Positions 1 to 56,829 of a stretch of DNA of 64,000 nucleotides are shown in pieces. Origin of the DNA: an uncultured Bacteroidales bacterium (lineage in GTDB: Bacteria; Bacteroidota; Bacteroidia; Bacteroidales; Paludibacteraceae); assembly GCA_947164985.1 (NCBI GenBank), contig CAMUYI010000001.1, positions 186,001-250,000 of the forward strand, read 5' to 3'. Within the stretch, counting starts at the first letter, position 1. Each line of letters starts with the position of its first letter. Under the pieces are notes generated by a model. That model ran no database searches. It saw only the letters and a list, made by a program, of their open reading frames with translations, and was not told where the DNA came from. The position numbers were made by a program, and so were the translations under genes.

Positions 1-222
1 AACCGCCGTGATCTCCTGTGCTCCGGTCTTGATCTCCGTCTGCGTGACGTAGAACATCTTTTGATCCATTGAGAAACTGCGGACGTAAATAATACCCTTG
101 TCTTCCTGAAAATTAAACACCGGGCGCGTGAACATAAACGCCGCAGCGGCTATTGCAATCAGCATGTACGCCCAACGACGATACATGGCGCTCAAAGTAG
201 CATGATCAATTAATTCACTCAT
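1..222 (-). CDS. hypothetical membrane protein (5' part only, runs off the window start)
   Basis: Reverse-strand ATG at 222..220; translation MSELIDHATLSAMYRRWAYMLIAIAAAAFMFTRPVFNFQEDKGIIYVRSFSMDQKMFYVTQTEI...; promoter motif at 244-274 on the same strand. Confidence 0.55.
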   Translation of the reverse strand, partial: MSELIDHATLSAMYRRWAYMLIAIAAAAFMFTRPVFNFQEDKGIIYVRSFSMDQKMFYVTQTEIKTGAQEITAV

Positions 223-243
223 AATATTCTCCTAAATCGGCTG

Positions 244-274
244 CAAAATTACTGCTTTTTTTACAAATACACAA
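244..274 (-). promoter_or_regulatory. Bacteroidetes-type promoter (TTGTGTAT...TAATTTTG) for the partial minus CDS
   Basis: Reverse complement of caaaatta...atacacaa, standard spacing. Confidence 0.55.
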
Positions 275-291
275 GTTTTTTGACTTTTTTC

Positions 292-322
292 TTGCGTATA
301 TCAAATAATTTTTGTAATTTTG
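292..322 (+). promoter_or_regulatory. Bacteroidetes-type promoter for secDF (TTGCGTAT...TAATTTTG)
   Basis: -33/-7 motif pair upstream of 410. Confidence 0.6.
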
Positions 323-409
323 CGCACTTTTTGTGTGTCGTGCGCGAATATGCACTTGCGTACATGCGAAAAACAATGCATATATTATAAATAATAAATA
401 CAAAAAATT

Positions 410-3400
410 ATGCAAAACAAAGGACTTGTTAGAATTATGGCTGTCTGCCTTGCACTCGTGTGCGCTTTCTATCTGTCGTTCTCGTTGGTAACGAGTCATT
501 ATGACAAGAAAGCTAAGGAATATGCAGCCGGAGATGATGCAAAAGAGTACATCTATCTGGACTCGATTGCAGCAAAAAAAGTATGGTTTGGCTACACGCT
601 CAAAGAGTGCCGCGAGAAAGAGATCAATCTCGGTCTGGACTTGAAGGGCGGTATGAACGTGACGATGGAGGTATCCGTTCCGGACATCCTCGATGCATTG
701 AGCGGTCATAACGAAACGCCGAACTACAAAGCAGCTTTGGCGCTTGCCAAACAAAAACAAAAATCCAGCGGTGCAGACTTTGTTACGCTCTTCATCGAGT
801 CGTACAACGAGGTAGATCCGAACGGTCAGTTGGCTTCCATCTTCTCGACTTTTGAGTTGAAGGACAAAGTGACCCTCACCTCGACAAACGCTGAGGTAGA
901 GAAAGTAATCCGCGAAGAGGTGGACGGCGCTATCCAGAACTCGTTCAACGTGCTCCGTACCCGTATCGACCGTTTCGGTGTTGTTCAACCGAACATTCAG
1001 AAACTTGCTCAACCGGGTCGTATCCTGATCGAACTTCCGGGTATCAAAGAGCCGGAACGTGTTCGTAAACTGCTCCAAGGATCTGCTAACCTGGAGTTCT
1101 GGGAGACCTACGAGGCTTCTGAGTTACTGCCGATGCTCGCACAGATCAACCGCGAGTTCGCTGCTACCGCTCCGGAGGCTGAAGAGGCACCCAAAGCAGA
1201 GGATGTAAAAGCAGAAGAGGCTCCGAAAGCAGAGAGCGATGAACTCGCTGAACTGCTGGGTGACAGCGCTGCTGTAGAGGCTGATCAGGCTGCTCAGATC
1301 GCTGAGTACAAGAAGACCAACCCGCTCTTCGCTATCCTCAACCCTTCTATTAACCAAGCAGGTCAGGCTTACCGCGGACCGGTAGTGGGTACTGTTCATT
1401 ATACGGACACCGCTAAAGTCAACGCGATGCTGAACTCGCAGATCGCGAAAGCCGTTCTGCCGCGTGACGCACGTTTCTACTGGACCGTTAAGGCTATCGA
1501 TGAGGCAAATGCTTATTATAACCTCGTAGCCCTCAAGGCTCAACGCGACGGTCGTGCATCCCTTGAAGGTGACGTAATTACCGATGCACGTGCTGACTTC
1601 AGCCAGATCAGTGCTTATGCAAACGTATCGATGTCGATGAACGCAGAAGGTGCAAAAGCATGGCAGCGTATCACCAAAGATAACATCGGTAAGTCCGTAG
1701 CTATCGTACTCGACGGATATGTTTATTCATTCCCGACCGTACAAAATGAGATCGCCGGCGGTAACAGCCAGATCACTGGTAACTTCACCGTGGAAGAGGC
1801 AAAAGACTTGGCGAACACCCTGAAGTCCGGTAAGATGCCGGCTCCGGCTCGTATCATCGAGGAGAGTGTGGTAGGTCCGTCGCTGGGTCGTGAGGCTATT
1901 CAATCCGGTCTCTGGTCCTTCGCGCTCGGCTTCGTGCTCATCCTGCTGTACATGATCTTCTACTACGGCTGGATCCCGGGTCTCATCGCCGATGCTGCAT
2001 TGGTTTGCAACGTCTTCCTGTTGGTAGGTATTCTCTCTTCGTTCAGCGCTGTACTGACCCTGCCTGGTATCGCCGGTATCGTGCTGACAATGGGTACCGC
2101 TGTGGATGCCAACGTGCTGATCTACGAGCGTATCCGAGAGGAACTCAAGGCCGGCAAGGGTATGCGTAAAGCGATTGAAGACGGTTTCAAGGGTGCTATC
2201 ACCGCAATTATTGATGCGAACGTAACATCCTTCCTCACTGGTGCCATCCTGGCTATCTTCGGTTCCGGTCCTATCAAGGGCTTCGCCGTTACCTATATGA
2301 TCGGTATTATCTCCTCGTTCCTCACCGCTGTGTTCATCACACGTCTGTTGCTCGAGGATTATGCCGCCAAGGACAATGCCAAGGAACTGTCCTTCACCAC
2401 CAAACTGATGAAGAACTTCCTCCAGAACGTACATTTCGATTTCGTCAATGCACGCAAATGGGCTTACTGCCTCTCCGGCGCGCTCGTCATCTTCGCTATC
2501 CTCGGTCTCGAACCGCATATCTTCGGTAAACTGAACCTCGGTATCGACTTCTCCGGAGGACGTAACTATGTCGTTCGTTTCGACCGGAATATCAACACCC
2601 AGGACGTACGCGAGAGCCTCGATAAGACTTTCTCGGCTACCCTGGAGGACGGCGAGCTCTTCTCGCTCAATGTGATTACCTATGGTAACGACGCTAACCA
2701 GGTTCGTATCTCTACCAACTATCGTATCCACGAGGAGACCGCTGAGGCTGACGAGGCTATCGAGGCTCTGCTCTACGAGGGATGCAAGCCGTTCCTGGGC
2801 GACAATATCACCTTTGATGATTTCCGTTCGACCGACTCCAACGCGGCAGTAGGTATCATGCAGAGCCAGAAAGTAGGTCCGGCTATCGCCGATGATATCA
2901 CTACCAGCGCTGTATGGGCTGTCCTTGCTGCGCTCATTGTGATCTTCCTCTATATCCTCTTGCGGTTCCGTAACTTCGCATACTCGGTAGGCGCCCTGAC
3001 AGCTCTTGCACACGATACCGTTATCGTGCTCGGTCTGTACGCTATCCTCTGGAAGGTCATGCCTTTCTCCATGGAGATCGACCAGGCATTTATTGCAGCA
3101 ATCCTAACCGTTATCGGTTACTCGATCAACGATACCGTGGTCATCTTCGACCGTGTACGTGAGTACAACGGCCTCTATCCGAAGCGTGAGAAGAGCGTGA
3201 ACATCAACGACGCATTGAACAACACGCTCAGCCGTACCTTCTCGACCTCTATGAGTACATTCGTTGTCCTCCTCGCTATCTTTATCTTCGGTGGCGAGAC
3301 CATCCAGGGCTTCGTATTCGCACTCTTGGTTGGTGTGATTGTAGGTACCTATTCGTCTGTGTTCATCGCTTCGCCGATCGCTTACGACATCCAGTTGGCA

Positions 3401-3442
3401 CAGGCGAAACGCGCAGAGAAGAAAGCTGCTGATAAAAAATAA
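410..3442 (+). CDS. secDF: protein translocase subunit SecDF (fused)
   Basis: 1010-aa ORF; SecD motifs ([29 protein letters not shown]) followed by SecF ([33 protein letters not shown]). Confidence 0.97.
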
Positions 3443-4689
3443 TGGCAGACAAAGGCGGACATAAACCCAATACCTGTTGGTTCTGCGGGCAGAGTAAGCC
3501 GCATATGTTCTCCGGTATCGGAGATGCACTGATTTGTTCGGATTGCGTTGAGGCGGGGCATCGCCTCATCCTCGAGCATCCGCGCACCAGGACGTCGGAC
3601 GGAGAACTCGATATCGACACCCTACCTACACCCCAAGAGATTAAAGAGTTTCTGGACTTATATGTCATCGGCCAGGAGGAAGCAAAACGCTTCCTCTCGG
3701 TCGCTGTCTATAATCACTACAAGCGTACCCTACAGGAGATCAGCAATGACGATGTGGAGATCGAGAAGAGTAACATCCTCTTGGTAGGTTCAACCGGTAC
3801 CGGTAAGACCCTTCTCGCACGTACAATAGCTAAGCTGCTCAAGGTACCGTTTGCCATCACCGACGCCACTTCCCTTACGCAAGCCGGTTATGTAGGCGAA
3901 GACGTGGAGACTATCCTCGTTCGTCTGCTGCAGGATGCCGAATACGACGTCACCAAAGCCGAGAGAGGTATCGTCTTCATTGATGAGATAGATAAGATAT
4001 CCCGTAAGAGCGAGAATATGTCCATCACGCGTGACGTGAGCGGAGAAGGGGTACAGCAGTGCTTACTGAAGATGCTCGAAGGATCCATTGTAAACGTACC
4101 GCCGCAAGGAGGACGTAAGCATCCGGATCAGGAGTTTATTCACATCAACACCCGCAATATTCTCTTTATCTGCGGCGGCGCTTTCGAAGGCATTGAGCGT
4201 ACAATCGCACAGCGTCTGCATACGCAGGTCATCGGCTTCACGGCGCAACAGGAGACCGAACATCTGGATAAAAACAACATGCTCCAGTATATCGCGCCGC
4301 AGGACCTTAAGTCTTATGGTCTGATTCCTGAGATCATCGGTCGTCTGCCGGTATTGACCTATCTTAATCCGCTCGACCATGCTGCATTGCGCAATATTCT
4401 CACGCAACCCAAGAACGCCCTAACGAAGCAGTATCAGAAACTGCTATCCATGGACGGCGTACAACTAACGTTCGAAGATGAAGCTTTGGATTATATCGTG
4501 GATAAGGCTTTGGAATACAAACTCGGTGCACGCGGCCTGCGCGGACTGATGGAAGCGGTGATGACCGATTTGATGTACGAGATCCCGACAAAGAAAAAAG
4601 AAGGACCTCAAACCATCACCATCACGCGCCAGTATGCGCAAGAGAAACTCGAACGAGCAGACTTATACAGATTAAAAAACGCGGTTTAA
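3442..4689 (+). CDS. clpX: ATP-dependent Clp protease ATP-binding subunit ClpX
   Basis: N-terminal CxxC...CxxC zinc finger, Walker [27 protein letters not shown]; overlaps secDF stop (TAATG). Confidence 0.97.
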
Positions 4690-4702
4690 TGCCGCGTTTT
4701 TT
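4674..4702 (+). terminator. intrinsic terminator after clpX
   Basis: aaaaaacgcggtttaatgccgcgtttttt. Confidence 0.85.
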
Positions 4703-4726
4703 ATTTCTCTATCCCTTTCACTTTTC

Positions 4727-6175
4727 CTAGAATCCGCTATAAACGATCTCTAGCTTCATTCCGTTCTTAGCTGAACGGATCTTCGTGGCAGACATCGTCT
4801 GTTGCTGTCGTACTGACGTCACAGCGGTAGAAGAAGAAGTGCTGGAATATTCTACAGTTACCGGAACAAGCATCATATCCAATACTTCATCATTCGAAGT
4901 CTGACGTAACTGGTTCGTCAAGAAATCCGACAGGTCATAACTGTAGTAATAGATCTGGTTTCCAACCGAATCTACTCCTTCCGTCAACGCACCCAACAAT
5001 GCACAGGTGTCCGTAGGCAACTCTTTGTTCTTAAAGAAACGACTCATACTGCTCTCTTTAATCAGCAGCATATATTGCGACGGTTGTAACCATCCGTTAC
5101 GTCCTGTCTCCGTCTCTTTGTTCTCTACAGCCACCCACACTTCTGCTTTATTCACATACGGACGCTTCTCTGTATCTCCAATAGCATGATTCTTCATCTG
5201 CCGCATGATAGAGTCCGTGATCTGTGCCATCGGAATACCCATGCGCGTATATACGCCCGCGGGCGCGATTATATAATTATAGGTGTCGGAGTCTTGCTGC
5301 AAGCGTTCTACCCACTCCTGCTTGTCGCGATAACTGAGCGCATTTACCGTCCGCACTTCCGAATTGGCATAGAATGCTTTCATATCATGTACAACCGTAT
5401 CACGTCCTGCTTTCTTATAGCCAAAACGGTAATAGATACCCAAGGCGATATCCGATATATTCAGCATCGTGGACGATCCGAAAGAGGTCTCAATCAATAT
5501 GCCGTTGAAAAGTTGATTGAAAGCCTCCTGACTCTCAAAAGACTTTATCGAAGCGAAATCGCGCATGAAATCGTCATTGACACGCATACGGATCATCGGC
5601 ATATACGTACCGGTACTGCTTTGAATAGAATCTAACTTCTCCGATGCCACCACAATACGATGATTCGTCAAAATACTCTTTTGATGCGAACAATATTCTT
5701 CTACATTCAGGTCCGAAGCATACATACCGTTGTAGCGGAATGTTCCTTTATCCATCTTATAGGCATTGATCGCTATCGGCGAATTGGCATCCCCTACCCA
5801 ACTGGAATAATACATGAATAAACAGATCGAATCCACCGAATCCACCGAGAAATCTTCCGGATAACTGAAGCCTTCAGGACAGGCTAACTGCGTCAAGATA
5901 GAAGCCCGTAACAAACCATAGTCCGTCTCTATCTCACCCAATAGGAACGAATCCGCCTGTGCAGCTATCGCCTGACAACTGTCAATAGAGGAACGGATAC
6001 CAAACGTATCGGTCAACACAATAATCGCATCGTCTGCATCCAATACCGACTGACCCGTCGTGGTCACATCATCCTTACAGCCTGTCCATACACATAGTAC
6101 GGCGACAAGCGCACACCCTATCCTCGCAAAGCGTTTACTCATTCTCCTGTTGCAATAATGTCTGATAGAAATCAT
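4727..6175 (-). CDS. DUF4270-like lipoprotein (start possibly at the internal MSKRF, ~6142)
   Basis: 482-aa ORF with signal/lipobox (VLCVWTGCKDD) typical of Bacteroidetes DUF4270; downstream of starch-synthase-like ORF. Confidence 0.7.
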   Translation of the reverse strand: MISIRHYCNRRMSKRFARIGCALVAVLCVWTGCKDDVTTTGQSVLDADDAIIVLTDTFGIRSSIDSCQAIAAQADSFLLGEIETDYGLLRASILTQLACPEGFSYPEDFSVDSVDSICLFMYYSSWVGDANSPIAINAYKMDKGTFRYNGMYASDLNVEEYCSHQKSILTNHRIVVASEKLDSIQSSTGTYMPMIRMRVNDDFMRDFASIKSFESQEAFNQLFNGILIETSFGSSTMLNISDIALGIYYRFGYKKAGRDTVVHDMKAFYANSEVRTVNALSYRDKQEWVERLQQDSDTYNYIIAPAGVYTRMGIPMAQITDSIMRQMKNHAIGDTEKRPYVNKAEVWVAVENKETETGRNGWLQPSQYMLLIKESSMSRFFKNKELPTDTCALLGALTEGVDSVGNQIYYYSYDLSDFLTNQLRQTSNDEVLDMMLVPVTVEYSSTSSSTAVTSVRQQQTMSATKIRSAKNGMKLEIVYSGF

Positions 6176-7119: not shown

Positions 7120-7980
7120 ATGCAAATTATCACCACAAAACAGGAATTGCAAGCTACTGTTCAAGCCTGCAAAAATGTCGGCAAATCGATTGGTTTGGTA
7201 CCTACTATGGGCGCACTGCATGAGGGGCATGCAAGCCTTGTTAGAAGAGCCGTTTCCGAGAACAATGTATGCGTTGTTTCAGTCTTTGTCAACCCAACCC
7301 AGTTTAATAACAAGGAGGACTTGGCGAAATATCCGCGTAATATCGAACGTGATGCGGAACTGCTTAGCACCATCGGTGCCCATTATGTATTCGCGCCCAC
7401 TCCGGAAGAGATGTATTCCGCCGAAGAAATGAACAACACTTTTGCCTTTGATTTTGCTGGCCTAGACCAAGTGATGGAAGGCAAAATGCGTCCCGGTCAT
7501 TTCAATGGCGTCGTACAAGTAGTAAGCCGTCTTTTCTATCTCGTGCAACCCGACAAAGCCTATTTCGGAGAGAAAGACTTCCAGCAACTGGCTATCATTC
7601 ATCATATGGTTGAGCGCAGTTCAATGGCCGGAACGTTTGGTAAGCTGAAGATCATCGATTGTCCTATCGTTCGCGAAGCATCCGGTTTAGCGCTCTCCAG
7701 CCGCAATGAACGGCTATCTGCTGCCGAGAAACAAACCGCTTTAGCGATATCCAAGACCCTTTTTAAGTCGTTGAAATGGGCGAAAGAAGCAGGTGCCACC
7801 GTAGCTGCCGTGCAACAACGTGTCATCGACACCATCGATGCCGTAGAAGGTTTGGAAGTGGAGTATTATGAGATAGTGGACCAAACGACATTGCTACCTG
7901 CCAACACCTTTGACCACGCCATCGGCTGCGTTACCGTCTATTGCGGTCCGGTTAGATTAATCGACAATATCAAATATTGA
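7120..7980 (+). CDS. panC: pantothenate synthetase
   Basis: GLVPTMGALHEGHASLVRRA, VFVNPTQFNNKEDLAKYPR, PDKAYFGEKDFQQ motifs. Confidence 0.96.
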   Translation: MQIITTKQELQATVQACKNVGKSIGLVPTMGALHEGHASLVRRAVSENNVCVVSVFVNPTQFNNKEDLAKYPRNIERDAELLSTIGAHYVFAPTPEEMYSAEEMNNTFAFDFAGLDQVMEGKMRPGHFNGVVQVVSRLFYLVQPDKAYFGEKDFQQLAIIHHMVERSSMAGTFGKLKIIDCPIVREASGLALSSRNERLSAAEKQTALAISKTLFKSLKWAKEAGATVAAVQQRVIDTIDAVEGLEVEYYEIVDQTTLLPANTFDHAIGCVTVYCGPVRLIDNIKY

Positions 7981-8918
7981 TGCGCATCGTCTGTGACGCA
8001 CATATTCCGTTTTTACTTGAGGCTGTGCAAAAGGCATGGCCTCAAGTGGAAATCTATCCGATGAAACAGGAAGAAATCGATGCAGAAGCCGTCAAAAAAG
8101 CGGATGTACTCATCGTGCGCACACGTACCAAGGTCAATGAAGCCTTGTTAGTTGGTTCGCATGTCCAATTGGTCTGCACTGCCACCATCGGTTTTGACCA
8201 TATAGACACGGCCTATTGCGAATCCCACGGCATCCGTTGGATGTCCTGTCCCGGTTGCAACGCCCAAGCTGTCTGCGATTATATCGAAGAAGCGCTGCAA
8301 GAGACCAAAGCACAGGGAACAATTGGTATTGTCGGAGTCGGTCATGTCGGTTCGTTGGTAGCGAAGATGGCTGAGCGAAGAGGGATGAAGGTGCTACTCA
8401 ATGACACACCCAAAGGAATCGGTGTTTCGCTTGATGACATCGCGCAAAACTGCGATATCATCACCTTCCACGTACCACTGGATAAGACTACTTATCATTT
8501 ATGCGATAAGGCTTTACTGAATCAATGCAAGCCTAACGCCCTTATCATCAATGCAGCACGTGGCGGTGTGGTTGATGAACAAGCGCTCATACATAGCGGA
8601 CATCCTTTTATACTCGATACCTGGGAGAACGAACCGAATATCCATCCGGAAGTGTTGGCAAACGCGCAACTGGCATCCATGCATATCGCAGGCTATTCAG
8701 TAGAAGGTAAACGCAATGCCTCGCAGATGTGTTTGGATGCTATCGCGGGGCAGTTTAATCTACCGAAAATCGACATCTCTAGATCTCGAGGTCTCGACAT
8801 CTCTAATGAAAAAGGAGACTCAGCCTTCGGCTGGATCTCCCGTATTTCCGATCAACTCAAAGCGGATCCTACTGCTTTTGAGGCGCTGCGCAAAGCCTAT
8901 CCACTGCGCGGAGTATAG
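7977..8918 (+). CDS. pdxB: erythronate-4-phosphate dehydrogenase
   Basis: D-2-hydroxyacid dehydrogenase fold: GTIGIVGVGHVGSLVA, ALIINAARGGVVDE, LDTWENEP; 4-bp overlap with panC. Confidence 0.85.
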   Translation: MMRIVCDAHIPFLLEAVQKAWPQVEIYPMKQEEIDAEAVKKADVLIVRTRTKVNEALLVGSHVQLVCTATIGFDHIDTAYCESHGIRWMSCPGCNAQAVCDYIEEALQETKAQGTIGIVGVGHVGSLVAKMAERRGMKVLLNDTPKGIGVSLDDIAQNCDIITFHVPLDKTTYHLCDKALLNQCKPNALIINAARGGVVDEQALIHSGHPFILDTWENEPNIHPEVLANAQLASMHIAGYSVEGKRNASQMCLDAIAGQFNLPKIDISRSRGLDISNEKGDSAFGWISRISDQLKADPTAFEALRKAYPLRGV

Positions 8919-10827
8919 GTTCGATAGACGGTGCTTCACCTACTGCCTCAATCATCCACTGCTTCGGTGTCAAACGACCTAACTTATAGATCCGCGCGTA
9001 TTCATCGGCAAAAGCAGCTTGATCCTTACTCTTAGCCAAGTGTTCCTCCAGTTGATATTGTACAATATGTCCCAACGGATAATTGGGCAGGTACATCGGG
9101 GCATTCACCATATGGCTATAGACCGCCAGTAAGATACAGTCATGCTCTCCTAAGACCGGTTCATAATATTGATTCCATACCTCTTTGGCTAAAGCCATCG
9201 TGGCTTCACACAATTCTTTGGCCTTCGCCTTTGGATGATCATAAATCCACCGCCACATCGCCATGTCTACCAAACTTACACCCATGATCTCGTACATCGA
9301 CCAGAACTGATCAAACACTTCGTTCTGATCATTCACTCCGTTCCCCATCTTAGCGCCTGGCAATAACTGCAAGTCGCGGTGCTGCCATAAGAACGCAGAG
9401 GCTTCAGTATAAGCTGTGTTAGGCACACCGGAGAGCATGTAATGGTCAATGAAATACATATCCAGCACTTGTTCTACGCAATGTCCAAACTCATGCACGG
9501 CGATGTTATAACCCTTATAATCCATACCTTTGGCAGGAATACGCGTACGCAGGCGTGCGTCCTCTTTGCGCCCCAGACAAGGCCATGCGTGACCCGAACC
9601 ACGTGCCGGTTCAACGACTATATGATGCGCGATACTTCTTGCATCCTCGCTATAAAAACCCATCTGTTGCAACAAACGCGGCATGTCGGCAGCAAACGCA
9701 TTGGCATCTGGATAGAGTCGGCGAGTCTGTTTACTCAGTTCATCCTCATTCAATGCCGCACGGGCTTTGAAGCCGTCATACCATATATCGTACGGACGTA
9801 AGTCTCGTCCTAGACTTTCACGGATGATAGCAGCTACTTGCTTTACTTGCTCCGAACCCACCAATGCTCTAAACAAACTATCCAACTCAGCGGCAGGAAT
9901 CTCTACCCCTTCCTCAAAATTACGCTGAATACCCGTAGGAGCAGACGGACAATAAGCGTCGGAAGCAAAATACGCATGCGCGATATCCAAAATCTTTTGA
10001 TAACGCGTGTAGGGTTCTGCAGCCAAGTCATCCGAATAGGGTTTCCATATGAAATCCGCTCCATTGATAGCTTGTTGCGGTATCGTCTGACTGACAATAC
10101 GTTGCATCACCTGATAGATCATCTCCTGCATCTCTTGACCATTCTCGGCCCCATACAAAGCCTTCAACTCGTCCCTCAAGTTCCAATGACTCAGCAGTAC
10201 TTTGTCCATCTCCCATAACTGTCGGTCATCTTCCGTACGCAGGTTTCCCATGTAGATATTATAATCGGCGATATAGTTTTCTGCATCCGCTAAGGCTCGC
10301 GCCATACGGGTATTCACTTCTGCCGGTATTCGGGTCGTGAACACATCGCCCATGCGGGCATAAGCCCATTCGAGACGCGTCCATTTTTTACCTAACTCAT
10401 TCTTCTCCTCCAGTGTATAGTGCGGAAAATTGATGATCGTGATGAACGCCAGTTTATTGGCGAACATATCATCGGAGAAATGGGCTAAGGGACTATACCC
10501 GGACATGATCCAATCCGGCATCTGAGGATCAGCTGCGTTCGTTAACTGCGTCGGACGCAACAACTCCACCGTCAGCATGTCTGCCGACTGATAGACATTC
10601 TCAAAAATACGACTGAGTGACTCAAACAACGCCAGACGTTCACTGTCTGTCTCGCAGTAATAATCTGCCACCAACTGGTCAAAATCTTGTTCAGAACCAT
10701 CCTGCGCCGTCCATAACGCGGCAGCTTGTTGAATTCCGCGAGGAGCGGATTCACACGATTTCATCGGACTTTTCGGACTACATGAGGCTAACATAAGGCA
10801 GCCAAGAAGAAGATGTTTAATGTTCAT
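8869..10827 (-). CDS. secreted zinc metallopeptidase (gluzincin, HEFGH) lipoprotein
   Basis: Lipobox LMLASCS; NIAVHEFGHCVEQ HExxH motif with downstream E (AYTEASAFLWQ); 652 aa. Confidence 0.75.
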   Translation of the reverse strand: MNIKHLLLGCLMLASCSPKSPMKSCESAPRGIQQAAALWTAQDGSEQDFDQLVADYYCETDSERLALFESLSRIFENVYQSADMLTVELLRPTQLTNAADPQMPDWIMSGYSPLAHFSDDMFANKLAFITIINFPHYTLEEKNELGKKWTRLEWAYARMGDVFTTRIPAEVNTRMARALADAENYIADYNIYMGNLRTEDDRQLWEMDKVLLSHWNLRDELKALYGAENGQEMQEMIYQVMQRIVSQTIPQQAINGADFIWKPYSDDLAAEPYTRYQKILDIAHAYFASDAYCPSAPTGIQRNFEEGVEIPAAELDSLFRALVGSEQVKQVAAIIRESLGRDLRPYDIWYDGFKARAALNEDELSKQTRRLYPDANAFAADMPRLLQQMGFYSEDARSIAHHIVVEPARGSGHAWPCLGRKEDARLRTRIPAKGMDYKGYNIAVHEFGHCVEQVLDMYFIDHYMLSGVPNTAYTEASAFLWQHRDLQLLPGAKMGNGVNDQNEVFDQFWSMYEIMGVSLVDMAMWRWIYDHPKAKAKELCEATMALAKEVWNQYYEPVLGEHDCILLAVYSHMVNAPMYLPNYPLGHIVQYQLEEHLAKSKDQAAFADEYARIYKLGRLTPKQWMIEAVGEAPSIEPILRAVDRLCAAPQKQ

Positions 10828-47958: not shown

Positions 47959-49611
47959 CTATACAACAACCCACTGTCTATTATTCACAACACGAATTTT
48001 CTTATTCTTACGAAGGAATGCTAATAGATTTGTTATTTTATCCGCCTTTTGTCTATCCGTCAATATTTCCGGAAGTTTAGTCCACAGCAAGTCATTAATC
48101 TCTTGCCTACTCATAGTTCCGTTATCCTCAATTGCTTTCAAAATAAGTTGCTTATAGTAGTTATCATCCAATCCTTTATTTTTGCTGTACTGCGCCTTTT
48201 GTTTGGTTATTTGAGCTACCGAACTGGAAATATATAGCGAACTGGCTCTTCCTTCTACGAGTTGTTTCTTACGTAACATTTTGAGCGCGTCTGCTGTGAT
48301 AGGTAATCTGCGTTGGACACGATCTAGCAGATAGGCTTCCGTCAGTGTAATATCCGCGTGCTCCATCAGTAATCGGCTATAGTCGGCATTCAGTACGGCT
48401 CCCGGGATATGGAGAACAACTTGATTAGGTTCCCCTTGTTCGTATTGAGGCATAGGCAAGAACCTTTTTCGCTGACTTTGGAAGATTTTATGAATACCAT
48501 ACCCTTGCGTATCAATCATTTTCAGGTTAACCATAGCCTGTGTCAAAAACGGATTGCGGTACTTTGTCGGAGTCTTGGTACCAGTATAATAATCTTCGAA
48601 TCGACCTTCAAAGAACGAGCCGTAATTGGAAAAGATCAGTTCATCGGGACGTTCTGTTACTACCACACGTCTATTGAGAGTATAGTCTTGGTGCGCAACA
48701 CAGTTATAGAGAGCCTCTAATATAGACTCGCTGTCATATTTCCACACATCAGCAGGAATGAGACTATTTTGAGGGAAGATTTTTATTCTATAATTTCTGA
48801 TGCGGTGCAAGAGATTATCTGTGGACAATAAGTACGGTATTGTAAAGATATCGCTGGCGGTCTCTTCTTCAGATTGTAGGCGCCATACGATTTGGCTAAT
48901 ATGATTCAGTAAATGCGCTGATTCGGGTTTTCCAACGAGTAATAAAGTTGTACGGGTAATTTTTCCATTGATAGTAAGCCGTGCCTTATCTAAGAATGTT
49001 ATTGTGTCCCAATTATTAGCTTCCTCTGCATAATTTGGGAACCTTTGCAGGTAGCCCTCTTTTGCAATACGCAATGCGTCCGGATCAAGATCTTCGAGCG
49101 TAGCGTTCTCTACTATTTGTTTAGTCCAATCCGTTTGAGAGTTATAGATCGTGCGCAACCAATCGGTATAAGGCAATAATGAGGTTGTTTGGCTATTAAT
49201 TCGGATGTATGGAATCTTCTTGTAGGTTGTAGGTGCGCCTTCCGCAGCTGGAATAGAAAGTACTACGATGCGAGTTTTGCCATTGTATTGAAAGTCCTCG
49301 AACTTAAAATCAATACGGGGTTCCACCATACGCCGTAGGTATAATTCCAAATCTTGATTACCCAAGGCCTTTTGAGATAGATAATTAAAGGTTGTTCCTT
49401 TGATATCATGCGTATCATCATCTATTCCCATGAACAAGTATCCCTTCTCTTGGTTTTGAAGACAAGCCCCATTTGACAAGGCTGAGATGTATTGTCCCAA
49501 ACGATCTACTTCCACAAAATTCATCTTGAATTCGAGGAATTGGTTCTCTTGCGTATACAGACCTAGCATTTGGTCTAACAAACTAGAATACTCACTATCT
49601 TTATTGGTCAT
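47959..49611 (-). CDS. AlbA_2/Schlafen-type putative DNA/RNA-binding protein (RecG C-terminal-like)
   Basis: ENQFLEFKMNF...ISALSNGACLQNQEKGYLFMGIDDDTHDIKGT; ALYNCVAHQDYTLNRRVVVTERPDELIFSNYGSF. Confidence 0.82.
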   Translation of the reverse strand: MTNKDSEYSSLLDQMLGLYTQENQFLEFKMNFVEVDRLGQYISALSNGACLQNQEKGYLFMGIDDDTHDIKGTTFNYLSQKALGNQDLELYLRRMVEPRIDFKFEDFQYNGKTRIVVLSIPAAEGAPTTYKKIPYIRINSQTTSLLPYTDWLRTIYNSQTDWTKQIVENATLEDLDPDALRIAKEGYLQRFPNYAEEANNWDTITFLDKARLTINGKITRTTLLLVGKPESAHLLNHISQIVWRLQSEEETASDIFTIPYLLSTDNLLHRIRNYRIKIFPQNSLIPADVWKYDSESILEALYNCVAHQDYTLNRRVVVTERPDELIFSNYGSFFEGRFEDYYTGTKTPTKYRNPFLTQAMVNLKMIDTQGYGIHKIFQSQRKRFLPMPQYEQGEPNQVVLHIPGAVLNADYSRLLMEHADITLTEAYLLDRVQRRLPITADALKMLRKKQLVEGRASSLYISSSVAQITKQKAQYSKNKGLDDNYYKQLILKAIEDNGTMSRQEINDLLWTKLPEILTDRQKADKITNLLAFLRKNKKIRVVNNRQWVVV

Positions 49612-49663
49612 AATATGGATGTTGATTTTATTGTTCGTTTATACTTTGCACACAAAAAGTGCG

Positions 49664-49694
49664 CAAAGTTACACATTATTTCTCACATATGCAA
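49664..49694 (-). promoter_or_regulatory. promoter for the AlbA_2 gene
   Basis: caaagtta...atatgcaa. Confidence 0.6.
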
Positions 49695-49733
49695 GAAAAA
49701 AGTATAGTTTGCTATAAAAAATAACACGATCTC

Positions 49734-49764
49734 TTGCATATATCAAATAACTGTTGTATCTTTG
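49734..49764 (+). promoter_or_regulatory. promoter of orphan short transcript
   Basis: TTGCATAT...TATCTTTG. Confidence 0.65.
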
Positions 49765-49770
49765 CAACGT

Positions 49771-49849
49771 GAAATAAAAAATTGAATAAATCATTTCAAA
49801 ATGGATAGTAACCTACTTTAACGTCAACCGCTCACGGTTGGCGTTTTTT
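49771..49849 (+). ncRNA. candidate ~79-nt sRNA with a 6-codon ORF (MDSNLL)
   Basis: Promoter at 49734-49764; atggatagtaacctactttaa at 49801; terminator acgtcaaccgctcacggttggcgtttttt. Confidence 0.5.
49821..49849 (+). terminator. intrinsic terminator of orphan transcript
   Basis: acgtcaaccg-ctca-cggttggcgt-ttttt. Confidence 0.85.
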
Positions 49850-49933
49850 ACTTTTGGTCTATTGACATAAAATCCATTTTTCGTGCTCTTTCTTACTAAA
49901 ATGCACATTTTTTAAGAAAAAATTACATTTTTC

Positions 49934-49964
49934 TTGCGTATTTAATAGATTATTCGTAAATTTG
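49934..49964 (+). promoter_or_regulatory. promoter for TonB-dependent receptor-like gene
   Basis: TTGCGTAT...TAAATTTG. Confidence 0.6.
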
Positions 49965-49990
49965 CAGCCGATTTAGAATGGATAATCATT

Positions 49991-52510
49991 ATGGAAATGA
50001 AACGAGTAATTACTTTTATATTAGTTGCTTTTACAACGATTTGTGCTCACGCAGCGATAATCACGGGTACTGTTCGTGAGAGTTCTTCCAATGATGCAAT
50101 AGCATATGCGACTGTTTCATTGTTGAAGCCCGATAGTTCGTTATATTCCGGAGCCATCTCCGATGATAACGGCAATTTCAAATTACAAGCACCCTCCGGC
50201 ACCTATATTTTGCATGTCAGCTATGTCGGGTATAATTCTTTATATCGGGATGTTAATTTGAATAGGGAAAAATTAGAACTTGGGAACATCTTCTTAACGG
50301 AAGAAACCATCGTCATGACTGAAGTTGAGATCAAAGCCAACAAACCCCTCATTCAACGCCAGATGGATAAGATTGTGATGAATGTAAGCAGTAGTCCGTT
50401 TGCTATAGGCAGTTCCGGCGCAGACATGCTCAAGAAAGCTCCTGGCGTAGTGATTGACAAAGACGGCAATGTGACTGTCAACGGGAAAAGCGTAGCCGTA
50501 TATATCGATGGAAGACCGTCTTACATGAATAATGAGCAGTTAAAAGGTCTGTTACAAGGAACGGATGCCACAACGATTGACAAGATAGAGATTATTACCA
50601 ACCCTTCTGCCAAGTATGATGCTGCGGGACAAGGTGGAATCATCAATATCAAGCTCAAAAAGAACAAATCCATCGGCGTCAGCGGAACACTCTCCGGTTC
50701 GTATTCCGGTATGTATTTTAAGAAATCGGATAAATACTATCAAGGAGATCATTTTTCATTCTCTATTAACCATCGCGGTGCAAAAACATATACTTCTTTT
50801 GCTTTGACCCAAATGTATAATAATTCCGGTGAATATACCTCTTCTATAAGCCAACAACCATACTCCGGCGATACGATGCGTACCATTAGCGAATCCAGAG
50901 CGGAAGATGTCTTCCAATATTATAGTGCACGGCTTACCAACGATTGGTATATCAACGACAAGCACACTTTGGGTTTTATAATTAATGTTCCCGTGATGAA
51001 GTTCGATATGCTTTCTAATCCAACTGACAGATATCACTCAATAATCCGATGGGGAAATGACACCATCCAAGATATTATTACCCGGAATCACAGTCAAATG
51101 CTTTGGCCGCGCTATTCGGGAAATTTAAACTATACCTTTGTCATTAACGATTCGCTCAACCAAGAACTGACAGTCAATACCGACTATCGTCGTACCGGAA
51201 ACAAGGTCGATAATCCACAAGAAAATATCGTTTGGGTGAATAATGATGCTATAGTGAAGCGAGTGCCAGACTATATAGGCGTCAAAACCAAACAAGATGT
51301 AGATATTTTTTCCGTCAAAGCAGATTTCCAAACCGCGTTTTGGAAGACCGGCATGATTGAGTGTGGAGCAAAATATACCATGAGTCATACCGCCAATGCG
51401 CTGACGGAAGATTCTGTGATTGCCTCTTATCGCAGTACCACCGAAATGGCATACGATTACATGGAGCATATAGGGGCTGTATACATATCGGCTGCAAAAC
51501 AATTCAATGAACATTGGAATGCCAAAATCGGTTTGCGTGGAGAATTGACAAGCAACAAAGGTATCTATCAAAAGGAAACGGAAACAAAAACTGTTACCAA
51601 AAAGCCCTATTTTAACCTTTTTCCATCAGCCTTTGTCGGGTATAATCCTACCGATAAATGGGCGCTCAGTCTGAACTATACGCGTCGTATCAGCCGTCCT
51701 GACTATTGGTCATTGAACCCGTTTGTTCACTATTATGATGCTCATACATACTACTGTGGTAATCCGGATCTGAAACCAATGTTCACAAACCAAGTAGCTT
51801 TTAATGTCGGATGGAGTCGGTATATAAATTTGGAATTGGAATTCAGTCATACAGCCGGAACAATCACTATGCGTCCGGAGATGTTGGCTAATGGTGATTT
51901 AAAATACTCTTATGTTAACTTCGGGACAACGATGTCTGCAGGTGGTTCCATTTCCTTAACAGAGATTCCTATCGTTCCAAAATTCAAAACGGACGACAAA
52001 GGTAAGCGTGAAATAGATGGCGCCTGGTTAGCTTTGACCGCGAATATCGGTCTCTATGATAACATCAGTGTTGCCGACCCGACTAATGATGCTAAATACG
52101 GCACCAAACATGCCTTCCATTCTTCATACTACGGCTCATTGACTGCTTATCTTCCGAAAGAATGGCAGATAGCGGTAGATGCATGGGGATCCACTCCATA
52201 TACTTCCAATTATGAATCGTGGTCCGGAGGATATAATATAGGTGTTGGTATTAAAAAGACATGGTCTGAGTATGGATTGACACTCAGTGCCAATGTAGAT
52301 GATTTAGTTCGTTCATCTATTTGGTCTTCTCACTCCATCGGTATGGCAGACGGTTATTTCACCTCATCGAAAACCATAGGAGATAATCAAAATATCAGCC
52401 TTGGTATCACGTGGCAATTCGGTAAAACTCAACAACATAAATACCGCAATGTAGGGGACTACGAACAGGATAGCCGCATGGGAGGCGGAGGAGGAAAAGG
52501 AGGACGATAA
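49991..52510 (+). CDS. TonB-dependent receptor-like outer membrane beta-barrel protein
   Basis: Carboxypeptidase-regulatory-like N-domain, plug (SSGADMLKKAPGVVIDKDGNVTVNGKSVAVYIDGRP), barrel. Confidence 0.9.
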   Translation: MEMKRVITFILVAFTTICAHAAIITGTVRESSSNDAIAYATVSLLKPDSSLYSGAISDDNGNFKLQAPSGTYILHVSYVGYNSLYRDVNLNREKLELGNIFLTEETIVMTEVEIKANKPLIQRQMDKIVMNVSSSPFAIGSSGADMLKKAPGVVIDKDGNVTVNGKSVAVYIDGRPSYMNNEQLKGLLQGTDATTIDKIEIITNPSAKYDAAGQGGIINIKLKKNKSIGVSGTLSGSYSGMYFKKSDKYYQGDHFSFSINHRGAKTYTSFALTQMYNNSGEYTSSISQQPYSGDTMRTISESRAEDVFQYYSARLTNDWYINDKHTLGFIINVPVMKFDMLSNPTDRYHSIIRWGNDTIQDIITRNHSQMLWPRYSGNLNYTFVINDSLNQELTVNTDYRRTGNKVDNPQENIVWVNNDAIVKRVPDYIGVKTKQDVDIFSVKADFQTAFWKTGMIECGAKYTMSHTANALTEDSVIASYRSTTEMAYDYMEHIGAVYISAAKQFNEHWNAKIGLRGELTSNKGIYQKETETKTVTKKPYFNLFPSAFVGYNPTDKWALSLNYTRRISRPDYWSLNPFVHYYDAHTYYCGNPDLKPMFTNQVAFNVGWSRYINLELEFSHTAGTITMRPEMLANGDLKYSYVNFGTTMSAGGSISLTEIPIVPKFKTDDKGKREIDGAWLALTANIGLYDNISVADPTNDAKYGTKHAFHSSYYGSLTAYLPKEWQIAVDAWGSTPYTSNYESWSGGYNIGVGIKKTWSEYGLTLSANVDDLVRSSIWSSHSIGMADGYFTSSKTIGDNQNISLGITWQFGKTQQHKYRNVGDYEQDSRMGGGGGKGGR

Positions 52511-52539
52511 TTGTGTTGTAATATATAACTATGCATATA

Positions 52540-52570
52540 GAAAAATCGCTCATTCCGGGCGATTTTTTTG
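52540..52570 (+). terminator. terminator after 49991-52510
   Basis: aaaaatcgctcattccgggcgattttttt. Confidence 0.85.
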
Positions 52571-52590
52571 TATCTATACGTATTGTATAT

Positions 52591-53829
52591 TTAGTTGTGT
52601 GACATGTAGTATTCCCGCACTGAGTTTCTCCACTCTTGGAGCACTGTATTATCGGCTTGCAATGCATCGGAATACTCTATGGAGTAAAGGCGTCTATCAG
52701 ACGTTATCACCTTGGGATCAAACATACCGTCTCTAAACAAATTCTTATCATAAATGATGAGACATGGCATGTTTTTGCTATTGGCGATGGCTGCCTCAAT
52801 ATGCAACCATGGCGAAACGAGCGAAACACTGCTAAGCGGTTTTCGATCCACCGAATCCATATCTTTATGCAGACAACCGTCCGTAATCTGCATATACTCG
52901 CAGGCAAAAATAACACATCCGTCGCAGGGATCCATGCGTGCTTCGATATCGGATAACTGCGAGACAATCGGATATTCGTCACGGTTGATACAAACAGTAG
53001 AAGAGGCTATTTGTAGATTTTCTATGATGTTTATAATATTGTCATATTGCATTTTCTGCTTCAGATCCATAACACCTAACTTGCTTATAAAGATCTTGGT
53101 TTCGGCTTTACGTGGCACATATGTTCCCGCCTTAGGATCTTTATTGGCATGGAATATGCCATTGGCATCCAAAAATTCAAAAATCGGGCGCTTATTCCAT
53201 GTCGCTTGCTCCAATCCTTCCGCATCTTGAAAGTTCGCTCCCTCCAATACACAATCTTTATCAAAACGCACTCCTTTCAGGTTAGCGCCCTTGAAAGTGG
53301 CCGAATCAAGCAAACAGTTGTGGAAAACTGTCCCACTAAGGTTAGCACAATAAAAAACAGCCTTCTGCGCGTTGATGAAGTTAAGGCTACAATCTTTGAT
53401 AATCGCGTGGTAACAATCCACCTGCTCCATCGGCAGACGGATGTTCTTGTATTTTTCCTCATTAGTCAACTGATATTGCACACATGACTTCGGTTTTATT
53501 AAAGCACCTAACATATTGATATGCTGCATGTCCTGTCCCGTGAGCGACTTGGCATAGGAAAAGACATCTGCCACCACTTTTTGCAAAGCAACCGGGATGG
53601 ATGTGCGCAGCAATGCGACCAACACATTCTTCGTTTTGGAAGCATACATGAAATCGCCTACGTAATCACGCAACATGATGGCCGCTGTGATTTGCTCCAC
53701 CAATTTGTCCGAATACAACGATTTGGCACAAGACGTAAATAACTCTCTTTCCTTAGCATAGTATTGAATCAAAAAAGCAATGCCTGCTATCAAGAAAGAA
53801 GCAATTGCAATAATAACGGTAATTGCCAT
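52591..53829 (-). CDS. membrane-anchored pentapeptide-repeat protein with C-terminal TIR-like/nucleotide-processing domain
   Basis: N-terminal TM (MAITVIIAIASFLIAGIAFLIQYY); pentapeptides (AVFYCANLSGTVFHNCLLDSATFKGANLKGVRF); C-term TKIFISKLGV...CINRDEYPIVSQLSDIEARMDPCDGCVIFACEYMQI...SPWLHIEAAIANSKNMPCLIIYD. Confidence 0.6.
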   Translation of the reverse strand: MAITVIIAIASFLIAGIAFLIQYYAKERELFTSCAKSLYSDKLVEQITAAIMLRDYVGDFMYASKTKNVLVALLRTSIPVALQKVVADVFSYAKSLTGQDMQHINMLGALIKPKSCVQYQLTNEEKYKNIRLPMEQVDCYHAIIKDCSLNFINAQKAVFYCANLSGTVFHNCLLDSATFKGANLKGVRFDKDCVLEGANFQDAEGLEQATWNKRPIFEFLDANGIFHANKDPKAGTYVPRKAETKIFISKLGVMDLKQKMQYDNIINIIENLQIASSTVCINRDEYPIVSQLSDIEARMDPCDGCVIFACEYMQITDGCLHKDMDSVDRKPLSSVSLVSPWLHIEAAIANSKNMPCLIIYDKNLFRDGMFDPKVITSDRRLYSIEYSDALQADNTVLQEWRNSVREYYMSHN

Positions 53830-53932
53830 AGCATCAGATCTATTCGTTTAACATTCTTTTATTTTTCCGGCTGCAAAGGTACAACAAAAAAATGAAAAGA
53901 CCATATTTTTAAAGAAAAAAATGCATTTTTTT

Positions 53933-53963
53933 TTGCATAATTGGTAGATTTTTTGTAATTTTG
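53933..53963 (+). promoter_or_regulatory. promoter of the cupin operon
   Basis: TTGCATAA...TAATTTTG. Confidence 0.6.
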
Positions 53964-54042
53964 CGGCTGATTTTGTGATTTTTTAGGCACTATATATGCC
54001 AAAAAATGTGATTTCTGAGATGCTGCAAACAATAATACACAC

Positions 54043-54468
54043 ATGAAAACAATCAAGGGGAATCAAATACAGCTCGCATTACAAGACATTAAACGCGTCT
54101 ATCTATGCGGCAAGAACTTGAGTTCTCAAGCCTTCGAACACATAGAGAATGAGGGTTTGGAGATCGGCATCAGCGATTACAAAGAGTTCACCGCTGATGT
54201 TCCTCATGTCCATACGAGCAATGATGAGTACAATATCGTCATGGAAGGGGAAGTGAAAGTATATGTGTTTGAGGAGAAGAAAGAGTATGCGTTCGGCAAA
54301 GACGGAGTCTTTTTGATCGAACCGCATATGCCTTATATGGTGAAAGCAAAAGCAGGGACACAGGTGCTTTTTGTCAAATCTCCGGGAGGTAATGACAAAC
54401 AACTCTTGCCTATCACATCTCCAATCGAGCATTGGATGCGCGCGTGGGAAAACACTATGAACGGCTAA
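54043..54468 (+). CDS. cupin-domain protein
   Basis: PHVHTSNDEYNIVMEGEVKVYVFEEKKEYAFGKDGVFLIEPHMPYMVKAKAGTQVLFVKSPGG. Confidence 0.8.
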   Translation: MKTIKGNQIQLALQDIKRVYLCGKNLSSQAFEHIENEGLEIGISDYKEFTADVPHVHTSNDEYNIVMEGEVKVYVFEEKKEYAFGKDGVFLIEPHMPYMVKAKAGTQVLFVKSPGGNDKQLLPITSPIEHWMRAWENTMNG

Positions 54469-54480
54469 AATTCAATCACT

Positions 54481-55434
54481 ATGAGATACATCAAAGAGGC
54501 CATTATTCATTCACGTCGCGAATTGCAGGCTGTCGGTTCTGTTTGCGTGACCATTTGGGCATTTGTAGGTGCCCTATTAGACAAACAAATATTATGGCTT
54601 TTACTGGCTGTAATGTTTGCCATCTTCGTAGTAGTAAGTTGTGGAATCATTCTTGTCCGATATATCAGCGTCAAACGCGGTTTTATTACCGTAGAGGTTT
54701 TCCACAATCACCGTGTTACGCTTATGCGAAATGATTTCCAGGTCAATGCAGACTATCTGCTCCATCACCTTGATGAGCAAAAAATGAAAGAATTAGTTAT
54801 GGTGATGGGAATCGACATAACCGCGGATATGGCACTCAATACAAGACGCGGAATTGCGCATGACATGCTGAAGTATTTAAACAGTAATTATACGGAACAT
54901 GGAAAACTTCCTCAAGATGTTATTAATGAGCAAATAAGTGACTATTTTAATTCAAAATCTCCTTCTGGTGAGCGATGCAAATTGGATTTCGGCGAATGTA
55001 TAGAAGTCGAACTGGAATTAACGCCTAAAAACGACCCATCCGGAAAAACCCTCCCATGTAATCTGTTGATGGTAGTCAACTCCAAGAAAAAAGACTATAA
55101 CAAGAATAATCACGAATCCATTGACAGTGACGGCAAATCCAATTTGATTATTCCGACCATTTATAATCATATCAAATCAACAAATAAATATACCTCTATG
55201 TTGATTGGTATTATGGGGTCAAATGGCCTGGCTGTTCCTTATTTGCCTGAATTCTCTCAAATCATCAATCAATTGGCATGGTTAGGCACGGAGGCTCCTG
55301 ACGTTTTATTCTATGACGTCTACTTGTCTATTCGTGAGCAAGACTATTTTGATCATTGGAAAGTGTCGCTATCTCAGTTAGAGGCGTATTTGCATGCATG
55401 TGCTGACTATTACCCGCCTCAAACAGAAAAATAA
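54481..55434 (+). CDS. two-TM protein with possible macro-like (DUF6430/ThsA-II-like) cytoplasmic domain
   Basis: Two N-terminal TM helices then FGECIEVELEL...CNLLMVVNSKK...SNLIIPTIYNHIKSTNKYTSMLIGIMGSNGLAVPYLPEFSQIINQL. Confidence 0.4.
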   Translation: MRYIKEAIIHSRRELQAVGSVCVTIWAFVGALLDKQILWLLLAVMFAIFVVVSCGIILVRYISVKRGFITVEVFHNHRVTLMRNDFQVNADYLLHHLDEQKMKELVMVMGIDITADMALNTRRGIAHDMLKYLNSNYTEHGKLPQDVINEQISDYFNSKSPSGERCKLDFGECIEVELELTPKNDPSGKTLPCNLLMVVNSKKKDYNKNNHESIDSDGKSNLIIPTIYNHIKSTNKYTSMLIGIMGSNGLAVPYLPEFSQIINQLAWLGTEAPDVLFYDVYLSIREQDYFDHWKVSLSQLEAYLHACADYYPPQTEK

Positions 55435-55455
55435 ACGCTTTAAATTTATATTTTC

Positions 55456-56829
55456 ATGAAGAAAAACATGGTATATCATAGTATGAAAAAAATGTTTATG
55501 TTGCTGTTAGTAGCAGCGGTGGCAATGTCTTGCTCCAATTTCTCTACGGAGAGAGAGGGGATCGTGGTGAAAGATCCGCATAACCTCCTTAGAAAAGAGC
55601 TTAAAGACTCGTTACAGAACCCGATCTTGTTGTTTCCGACACGATTGGAGGTGTTGGAATCTCTGCCTTTTGGTTCAGAGGAACAAGTGATCGATAGCCT
55701 GTGGAATCTCGAACCGACATCGGTATTGATTGTAGCCTCTACCCATCCGGACTATGTATTTGTTCGTTTGAATGAGATCTTCGACGGCGCGATGTCCGCT
55801 GCCAAGGAAGGTACATTGGGTTCATCTGATTACTATAAAGTGCAACTAAGTGACAGTTCGGACATCAACAACAAGATCATAAGCATTATCAATCAATTGT
55901 TAAATACGGAGTCGTCAATGACCAATGCTTATTTGATAGAATATATCAAAGGCGAAATATTAGGACCGATCTATTCTTGGACCACTCCGGATGACAGTTG
56001 GGTATATCGTATTTTTTACTATCCGGCTCAGCGGCCTTTTGTATGGATGATCAATCTGACGGGCAACTACTTCTTAGGCCTTTTCCTGGTGATGTTACTA
56101 TTGGAGATTATATCGTATTTTACGAACACGCGAGTAATAAAACGTTATACGCGCAATGGTACACGTCAACTGAGCCAAGGGGATGTTATCAAACTGCAAA
56201 CGATAATCAATTTAGTGGATGTGGTAATCGTGATATTACCTGCTACGTTGGGCGCTTTGTCAATAGGAGTGCAAGTTTCCAATGTAGGTGCGGAGTTTTC
56301 TCGAGGCCTCGTAGAATACATGGGATTAAGTTATGCTTTTGTAGATAATTTCTATCAGGGTTCAGGAAACGAGCCCAATATATGGCTTACGATTCTGACA
56401 TGTTTGACTTTTTATATAGCCAAGTATAACAAAGAGAATGGGGGCATGGCAGCTGCCGGATGGTGCGGTGCCTTATGGTTTATCCTGATTGCCTCTTCGG
56501 CTGCGTTCGCATGGGCCGTCATGTTGCTGTTTATGGGCGGAGCAATTATGAATTCGAAACATTTCTGGGCGGATACCTATGTTGAAGCACGTTTGAATGG
56601 AATAGGAAAAGTGGAAAGTGTTTTTTGGATGAGTCTCACTCCGATAGTGGTTGTATTTGGCGCATTCTTGGGGAACTGGTTAGCGACAAGAAGCGTAGAA
56701 ATAGATCCGAATCGATTCCAAGTGCCGGCATGTCATGTTCAAGCCGGGGTAATAGACAAACCACGTCCGCATATAGAAACATGGTTCGCTCAGTTTGACA
56801 AGGAATTGGAATCAACTATCAACGAATAA
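55456..56829 (+). CDS. hypothetical membrane lipoprotein
   Basis: MLLLVAAVAMSCSNFS lipobox, 5-6 predicted TM helices in C-terminal half. Confidence 0.65.
   Translation: MKKNMVYHSMKKMFMLLLVAAVAMSCSNFSTEREGIVVKDPHNLLRKELKDSLQNPILLFPTRLEVLESLPFGSEEQVIDSLWNLEPTSVLIVASTHPDYVFVRLNEIFDGAMSAAKEGTLGSSDYYKVQLSDSSDINNKIISIINQLLNTESSMTNAYLIEYIKGEILGPIYSWTTPDDSWVYRIFYYPAQRPFVWMINLTGNYFLGLFLVMLLLEIISYFTNTRVIKRYTRNGTRQLSQGDVIKLQTIINLVDVVIVILPATLGALSIGVQVSNVGAEFSRGLVEYMGLSYAFVDNFYQGSGNEPNIWLTILTCLTFYIAKYNKENGGMAAAGWCGALWFILIASSAAFAWAVMLLFMGGAIMNSKHFWADTYVEARLNGIGKVESVFWMSLTPIVVVFGAFLGNWLATRSVEIDPNRFQVPACHVQAGVIDKPRPHIETWFAQFDKELESTINE

Follow-up and report, generated by a model that had tools for sequence, protein, structure and literature searches.

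The locus lies in a 64,000-nucleotide stretch of DNA (the window) from an uncultured bacterium of the Bacteroidales, whose 2.6-Mb genome is assembled in 57 contigs. Three open reading frames and a 213-bp divergent gap are located exactly as the earlier note described: a gene on the minus strand faces, across the gap, a cupin-like gene followed by a gene for a protein with two transmembrane helices (2TM). Hydropathy bears out the single N-terminal transmembrane (TM) helix proposed for the first protein and the two proposed for the third, and the motifs quoted from them are present in the sequence. The genes belong to a low-GC stretch (47959–56829; genes about 39–44% GC against a window mean of 46.8%), which is best explained as holding two unrelated accessory units back to back, unit A (52591–53829) and unit B (54027–55435).

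52591–53829, minus strand: TM-pentapeptide-TIR/NDT-like protein, 412 residues (open reading frame; three full-length relatives)
53767–53823, minus strand: N-terminal TM helix, residues 3–21 (hydropathy)
53203–53430, minus strand: pentapeptide-repeat region, residues ~134–209 (PF00805, PF13599, PDB pentapeptide proteins)
52594–53115, minus strand: TIR/NDT-like domain without a family name, residues 239–412 (hhalign; alignment A7)
52795–52797, minus strand: codon of Glu345 in SPWLHIEAA, candidate catalytic Glu (invariant in A7; aligned on the TIR catalytic-Glu helix)
53830–54042, unstranded: divergent intergenic region, 213 bp, 28.6% GC (only the last 16 bp kept in the cupin-2TM relative)
54043–54468, plus strand: cupin-like protein, 141 residues, first gene of the cassette (Cupin_2 E 4.7e-5; dN/dS 0.076 versus L005)
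54481–55434, plus strand: 2TM protein, 317 residues, TM helices at 15–33 and 41–59 (hydropathy; dN/dS 0.068 versus L005)
54027–55435, plus strand: cupin-2TM cassette, extent of DNA homology to CAJOFV010000071.1, 89.3% identity (blastn)

The same low-GC stretch also carries a Schlafen AlbA_2 protein (47959–49611, minus strand); an AlbA_2-looking gene, by eye split across two frames, is also located close to relative L016. Downstream, a 457-residue membrane protein (55456–56829, plus strand) is tightly spaced between the 2TM gene and a CitMHS/TrkA_C transporter. This protein has no Pfam match at cut-off, and a search of 150 other genomes of the genus found it in none.

The cupin-2TM cassette

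For the cupin call of the earlier note, Cupin_2 gives a weak match below cut-off (23.5 bits against 27.2); the 141-residue protein has no match in the PDB. The 2TM protein has no significant match in Pfam, PADLOC, NCBIfam or the PDB. Its relatives are even scarcer than those of the pentapeptide protein: across 200 genomes of the family and 395 of the order, only the window's own copy and one rejected match were recovered. When 85,488 species genomes were scanned, with sensitivity to close relatives only, a single relative turned up (L005, 92% identity), in a 1.8-Mb metagenome-assembled genome (MAG) labelled Paludibacteraceae. Two sets of matches were discarded: tblastn matches in Serratia phages are antisense to annotated genes and hence spurious, and one in genome G523 is a segment of a 577-residue ATPase-like protein.

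In L005 the cupin gene directly precedes the 2TM gene, and an LMW-phosphatase-like gene (assigned by eye) lies upstream. The pentapeptide gene is absent from the locus, and a search of the remaining genome gave no relative of the pentapeptide-protein domain, a result that, coming from a single MAG, is weak evidence. Homology between the two cassettes begins 16 bp upstream of the cupin ATG and stops 1 bp past the 2TM stop codon; the 213-bp gap that the earlier note read as a shared divergent promoter region is real, but homology takes in only its last 16 bp. The neighbours of the pair differ between the two genomes, and the L005 block has 41.5% GC against 56.9% and 48.2% in its flanks. With dS at 0.51, dN/dS is about 0.07 for both genes. 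The cupin and 2TM genes thus form a two-gene cassette under purifying selection, with the divergent promoter outside it.

It is possible, if on balance unlikely, that the cassette is a membrane effector or toxin-like system unrelated to NAD signalling, in which the 2TM protein would perturb membranes or sense a ligand under control of the cupin. The discrete two-gene block of distinct GC content, the strong selection on both genes and the change of neighbours all fit such a system. Against this, just two copies are known; moreover, the gaps of 21 and 16 bp leave room for co-transcription with the downstream membrane genes, which suggests ordinary transport or regulation. The proposal covers unit B alone and is compatible with the explanation of the locus as two separate units.

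The pentapeptide protein and its C-terminal domain

The pentapeptide repeats proposed for the 412-residue protein are confirmed by PF00805 (E 9e-8, 32.0 bits against a cut-off of 20.2), by PF13599 (E 5.7e-9) and by matches to pentapeptide proteins in the PDB. Pentapeptide-repeat proteins are best known as gyrase-protecting DNA mimics. The tandem A(D/N)LXX repeats place the window protein among them, and its repeat region matches the family of Qnr, MfpA and HetL (PF00805). Unlike these, it has only about 75 repeat residues, forming the mid-part of a membrane-anchored fusion, and the region scores at most 28 bits against Qnr cut-offs of 240–500.

Three full-length relatives were found (L002, L011 and L021; 27–28% identity), each with a single N-terminal TM helix by hydropathy and all with the same TM-pentapeptide-domain layout. 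Such relatives are scarce: the 200 family genomes yielded one, the 345 order genomes one further strong match, and the third comes from a contig of the viral collection. None of the three has a cupin or 2TM gene close by, so the pairing of the pentapeptide protein with these genes, as suggested in the earlier note, is not supported: no relative of either unit keeps all three genes, small as the numbers of relatives are on both sides. One relative, L021, resides on an element that carries integrase and mobilisation genes, and its neighbours there are a GajB-like and a PDC-S57-like gene. Searches of the open literature (subscription literature was outside their scope) found no description of a pentapeptide-TIR defence protein of the same layout.

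Some further observations concern these relatives. The PDC-S57-like, GajB-like helicase and pentapeptide-TIR-like genes of L021 lie in a row (48–5477) and constitute a candidate defence island. A CHAT gene adjoining L002 was considered as a type-IV-Thoeris-like partner and dropped, since L011 and L021 do not share it. Weak matches of the A2 profile in genomes G531 and G348 sit in unrelated-looking genes and were likewise dropped. On a Vibrio pectenicida plasmid, a Thoeris II pair lies two genes away from a pentapeptide protein (L073, 2448–3509) whose C-terminal domain looks alpha/beta; membership of this C-terminus in the window's domain family was not detectable.

The C-terminal domain of the window protein (174 residues, 239–412) has no significant match in Pfam, PADLOC, NCBIfam or PDB sequences. 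Pfam TIR and PADLOC ThsB models do not match it, and the similarity to TIR domains appears in profile-profile comparison only. For this comparison a TIR alignment was built from loci of the order Bacteroidales, and NDT, macro and ThsA sets were assembled as well. A four-sequence profile of the domain matched the TIR alignment over its whole length with 81.9% probability (score 38.0, E 1.1e-5 for one comparison), placing SPWLHIEAA on the TIR catalytic-Glu helix. The reversed control gave 0.2%, and 150 column shuffles reached at most 5.5% and a score of 21.9; the TIR-like pattern thus exceeds chance. The same profile gave 5.6% with NDT and at most 2.4% with other alpha/beta proteins.

The strength of the match depends on the sequences used. 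Random subsets of ten TIRs gave 18–92% and an independent ThsB set 52%; leaving the window sequence out of the profile lowered the TIR probability to 31%, and the window sequence alone gave 1.5%. As remoter relatives were added, the TIR probability fell to 59%, 46% and 37% while NDT rose to as much as 28%, with scores still well above shuffles wherever shuffles were run. Assignment as a divergent member of the TIR/NDT superfamily is therefore moderately supported, at the level of the superfamily and not of a branch.

Alignment A7 (10 rows) shows S249, P287, E345, P355, L357 and W400 (window numbering) to be invariant. The Glu of HIEAA, picked out by the earlier note as a candidate catalytic residue, is thus conserved in every row, and its position on a TIR-like helix suggests catalysis; the proposed fusion of pentapeptide repeats to a TIR/NDT-like domain is likewise supported. 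The AlphaFold2 model of the protein (pLDDT 46, from a two-row alignment) was too poor for use. In a PDB fold search only its pentapeptide part was recognised: the structures retrieved were mostly pentapeptide folds, all above E 0.001. PDB sequence and profile searches found no structural relative of this domain or of the 2TM C-terminus.

Gene contexts and proposed activity of the domain

tblastn from the L021 copy led to one haloarchaeal and one Rhodococcus plasmid, and from those to Bacillus, Priestia and Rhizobium; a last scan of the viral collection added three more contigs with the domain. By hhalign, these plasmid relatives match the window sequence alone at 95.9% and the four-sequence profile at 99.1%. 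Among Halorubrum, Rhodococcus, Bacillus and Rhizobium the domain occurs stand-alone or fused to a TIR. In Halorubrum (L106) a stand-alone gene lies beside two TIR proteins (PADLOC ThsB E 5e-14 and 3e-13) and a PycC-like cyclase (E 1.7e-11). In Rhizobium (L113) a single protein joins the domain, as its N-terminal half, to a CAP12/Pycsar TIR (PF10137, E 4.9e-29). On the viral-collection contig L118, four co-directional genes encode a TIR, a multi-TM protein, the domain and a large pentapeptide protein, the first three in an apparent operon; the multi-TM proteins of L118 and the Halorubrum locus are homologous (35% identity, E 1.6e-21). The window protein shares its domain with these CAP12/Pycsar settings but has neither a PF10137 TIR nor a cyclase neighbour.

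TIR, conserved multi-TM and domain genes thus recur as an immune-type cluster on Halorubrum pHLAC01 (L106, 2769–6292) and L118 (3918–7691), with a Pycsar-type cyclase as the extra member in the former and the pentapeptide protein in the latter. The Rhizobium fusion is encoded on a Rhizobium leguminosarum plasmid (L113, 3812–4723), with a DUF4231 gene about 3 kb away. In L116 and L117 the domain appears, by eye, to carry a C-terminal hydrophobic tail. The Bacillus mycoides relative (L115) has a cupin gene in its vicinity; as this gene is convergent and encodes a longer protein, it was taken as coincidence.

The argument for an immune role of the domain rests mainly on these contexts. We tentatively propose, at slightly less than even confidence, that this 'SPW-E domain' (FxSxP ... 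YP ... [ST]PWNxxExxMA ... LPxL) is widespread and belongs repeatedly to prokaryotic immune loci, where it would serve as an enzyme that processes nucleotides or as a sensor. Its settings are stand-alone genes next to a TIR and a conserved multi-TM gene (the haloarchaeon and the viral-collection contig), the fusion with a Pycsar/CAP12 TIR (Rhizobium) and the self-contained fusion with a TM helix and pentapeptide repeats (Bacteroidales). Copies come from archaea, Actinomycetota, Bacillota, Pseudomonadota and Bacteroidales, and today's defence-gene models overlook the domain. Its repeated companions are TIR proteins, a Pycsar-type cyclase, multi-TM proteins and pentapeptide repeats. Should the domain cleave or sense signals derived from NAD, TIR-based immunity would gain an extra component, and pentapeptide repeats a possible role as sensor or scaffold in immunity.

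For the locus as a whole, we give an even chance to unit A being a self-contained immune-type membrane protein and candidate nucleotide enzyme, with unit B a separate cupin-2TM cassette working without it. Directly supported here are the anatomy, relatives, invariant Glu, TIR-like profile similarity, immune-type neighbourhoods, separability of the units and purifying selection on unit B; from these we infer the catalysis, substrate, trigger and defence role of unit A, which may be an NADase or nucleotide sensor in phage defence. In the enzyme mechanism, the TM helix would tether the protein to the inner membrane, with the pentapeptide rod as a putative recognition or assembly platform. A phage or stress trigger would activate the C-terminal TIR/NDT-superfamily domain, which, via Glu345, would cleave NAD+ or a related nucleotide, and this cleavage would arrest the infected cell or generate a signal. 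Unit B would travel as a two-gene cassette and function without unit A.

Precedent for such an enzyme exists in the DUF4062/Swarozyc proteins, TIR-like NADases that are only distantly similar to known TIRs and act alone in phage defence (PMC13174449). They too combine a divergent TIR-like domain, one conserved Glu and fusion to an auxiliary domain; the window domain, in contrast, has no Pfam DUF4062 match, and its auxiliary part consists of pentapeptide repeats and a TM helix.

The main rival to this enzyme mechanism, which we regard as less likely, is that the domain is a nucleotide sensor: on binding a signal, either a cyclic nucleotide or one of ADP-ribose type, it would switch an effector, the TIR in Rhizobium, the TM/pentapeptide part here. 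As the Rhizobium domain precedes a real TIR, a sensor fits that protein as well as an enzyme does; the cyclase adjoining the Halorubrum gene fits too, as do stand-alone copies beside TIR genes that could themselves be the enzyme. However, among the immediate neighbours of the window gene and of the three full-length relatives neither a cyclase nor a TIR gene was seen, and the invariant Glu on a TIR-like helix speaks for catalysis.

Comparison with Thoeris type II

In Thoeris type II, a ThsB TIR protein is coupled to a TM-macro effector, ThsA (PF20016). Such effectors and their signals have been described (PMC11204291, PMC12847820), with His-ADPR driving oligomerisation of the membrane effector (PMC12847820). 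The window resembles this system in having a TIR-like domain and, in the neighbouring position, a 2TM protein whose size and TM spacing are similar. It differs in that its TIR-like domain shares a protein with pentapeptide repeats and a TM helix, in lacking a ThsA family match, and in that its genes part company in relatives.

The earlier note also assigned a macro-like domain to the 2TM protein. The motif it quoted is there; the pattern cannot be distinguished from chance on the available data. In profile-profile comparison the protein reached 0.3–1.3% probability with ThsA, within the range of shuffles, while leave-one-out controls recovered every ThsA member at 96–100%. An HMM of the ThsA C-terminus run on 1014 ORFs ranked the L005 2TM protein first among non-members, sub-threshold (E 0.12) and in the register expected of a macro domain; the window copy gave E 4. 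The TM helices are spaced as in ThsA of an E. coli plasmid. The AlphaFold2 model (pLDDT 40, two-row alignment) was too poor for use. The negative result against canonical macro domains says little because true ThsA proteins also fail that comparison. The macro-like domain is a candidate, called by eye.

A genuine Thoeris II lies elsewhere in the window's genome (L009, G000:C4:169000-186000): at 7757–9849 a TM-macro ThsA (PF20016 E 8.8e-34 and 2.5e-33) is followed by a TIR ThsB gene (PF13676 E 6e-9), after which comes a TPR gene extending to 11777. The genome therefore offers its own standard of comparison, from which the window genes depart. The window holds no PF20016 or PADLOC ThsA match, the pentapeptide protein is not recognised by ThsB or TIR models, and relatives of each unit occur without the other in place of an adjacent, conserved ThsA/ThsB pair; membership of Thoeris II is rejected.

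The central proposal of the earlier note was a Thoeris-II-like system of divergent layout: the pentapeptide-TIR protein would send its signal over the promoter region to an effector of 2TM-macro type, and the cupin would be an accessory. This proposal has failed and is now very improbable, since the TIR-like domain, the ThsA-like size and TM spacing of the 2TM protein and the leading HMM rank of its L005 copy are outweighed by the ThsA probability of the window protein, the separation of the units in relatives, a cassette boundary that leaves out the promoter and the true Thoeris II in the genome. The proposed two-part Thoeris variant is thus removed, and in its place stands an apparently unnamed, testable immune-type domain with one invariant Glu. 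Further TIR-domain matches lie outside the window in the same genome, at G000:C22:12121-14138 and G000:C38:1567-2775.
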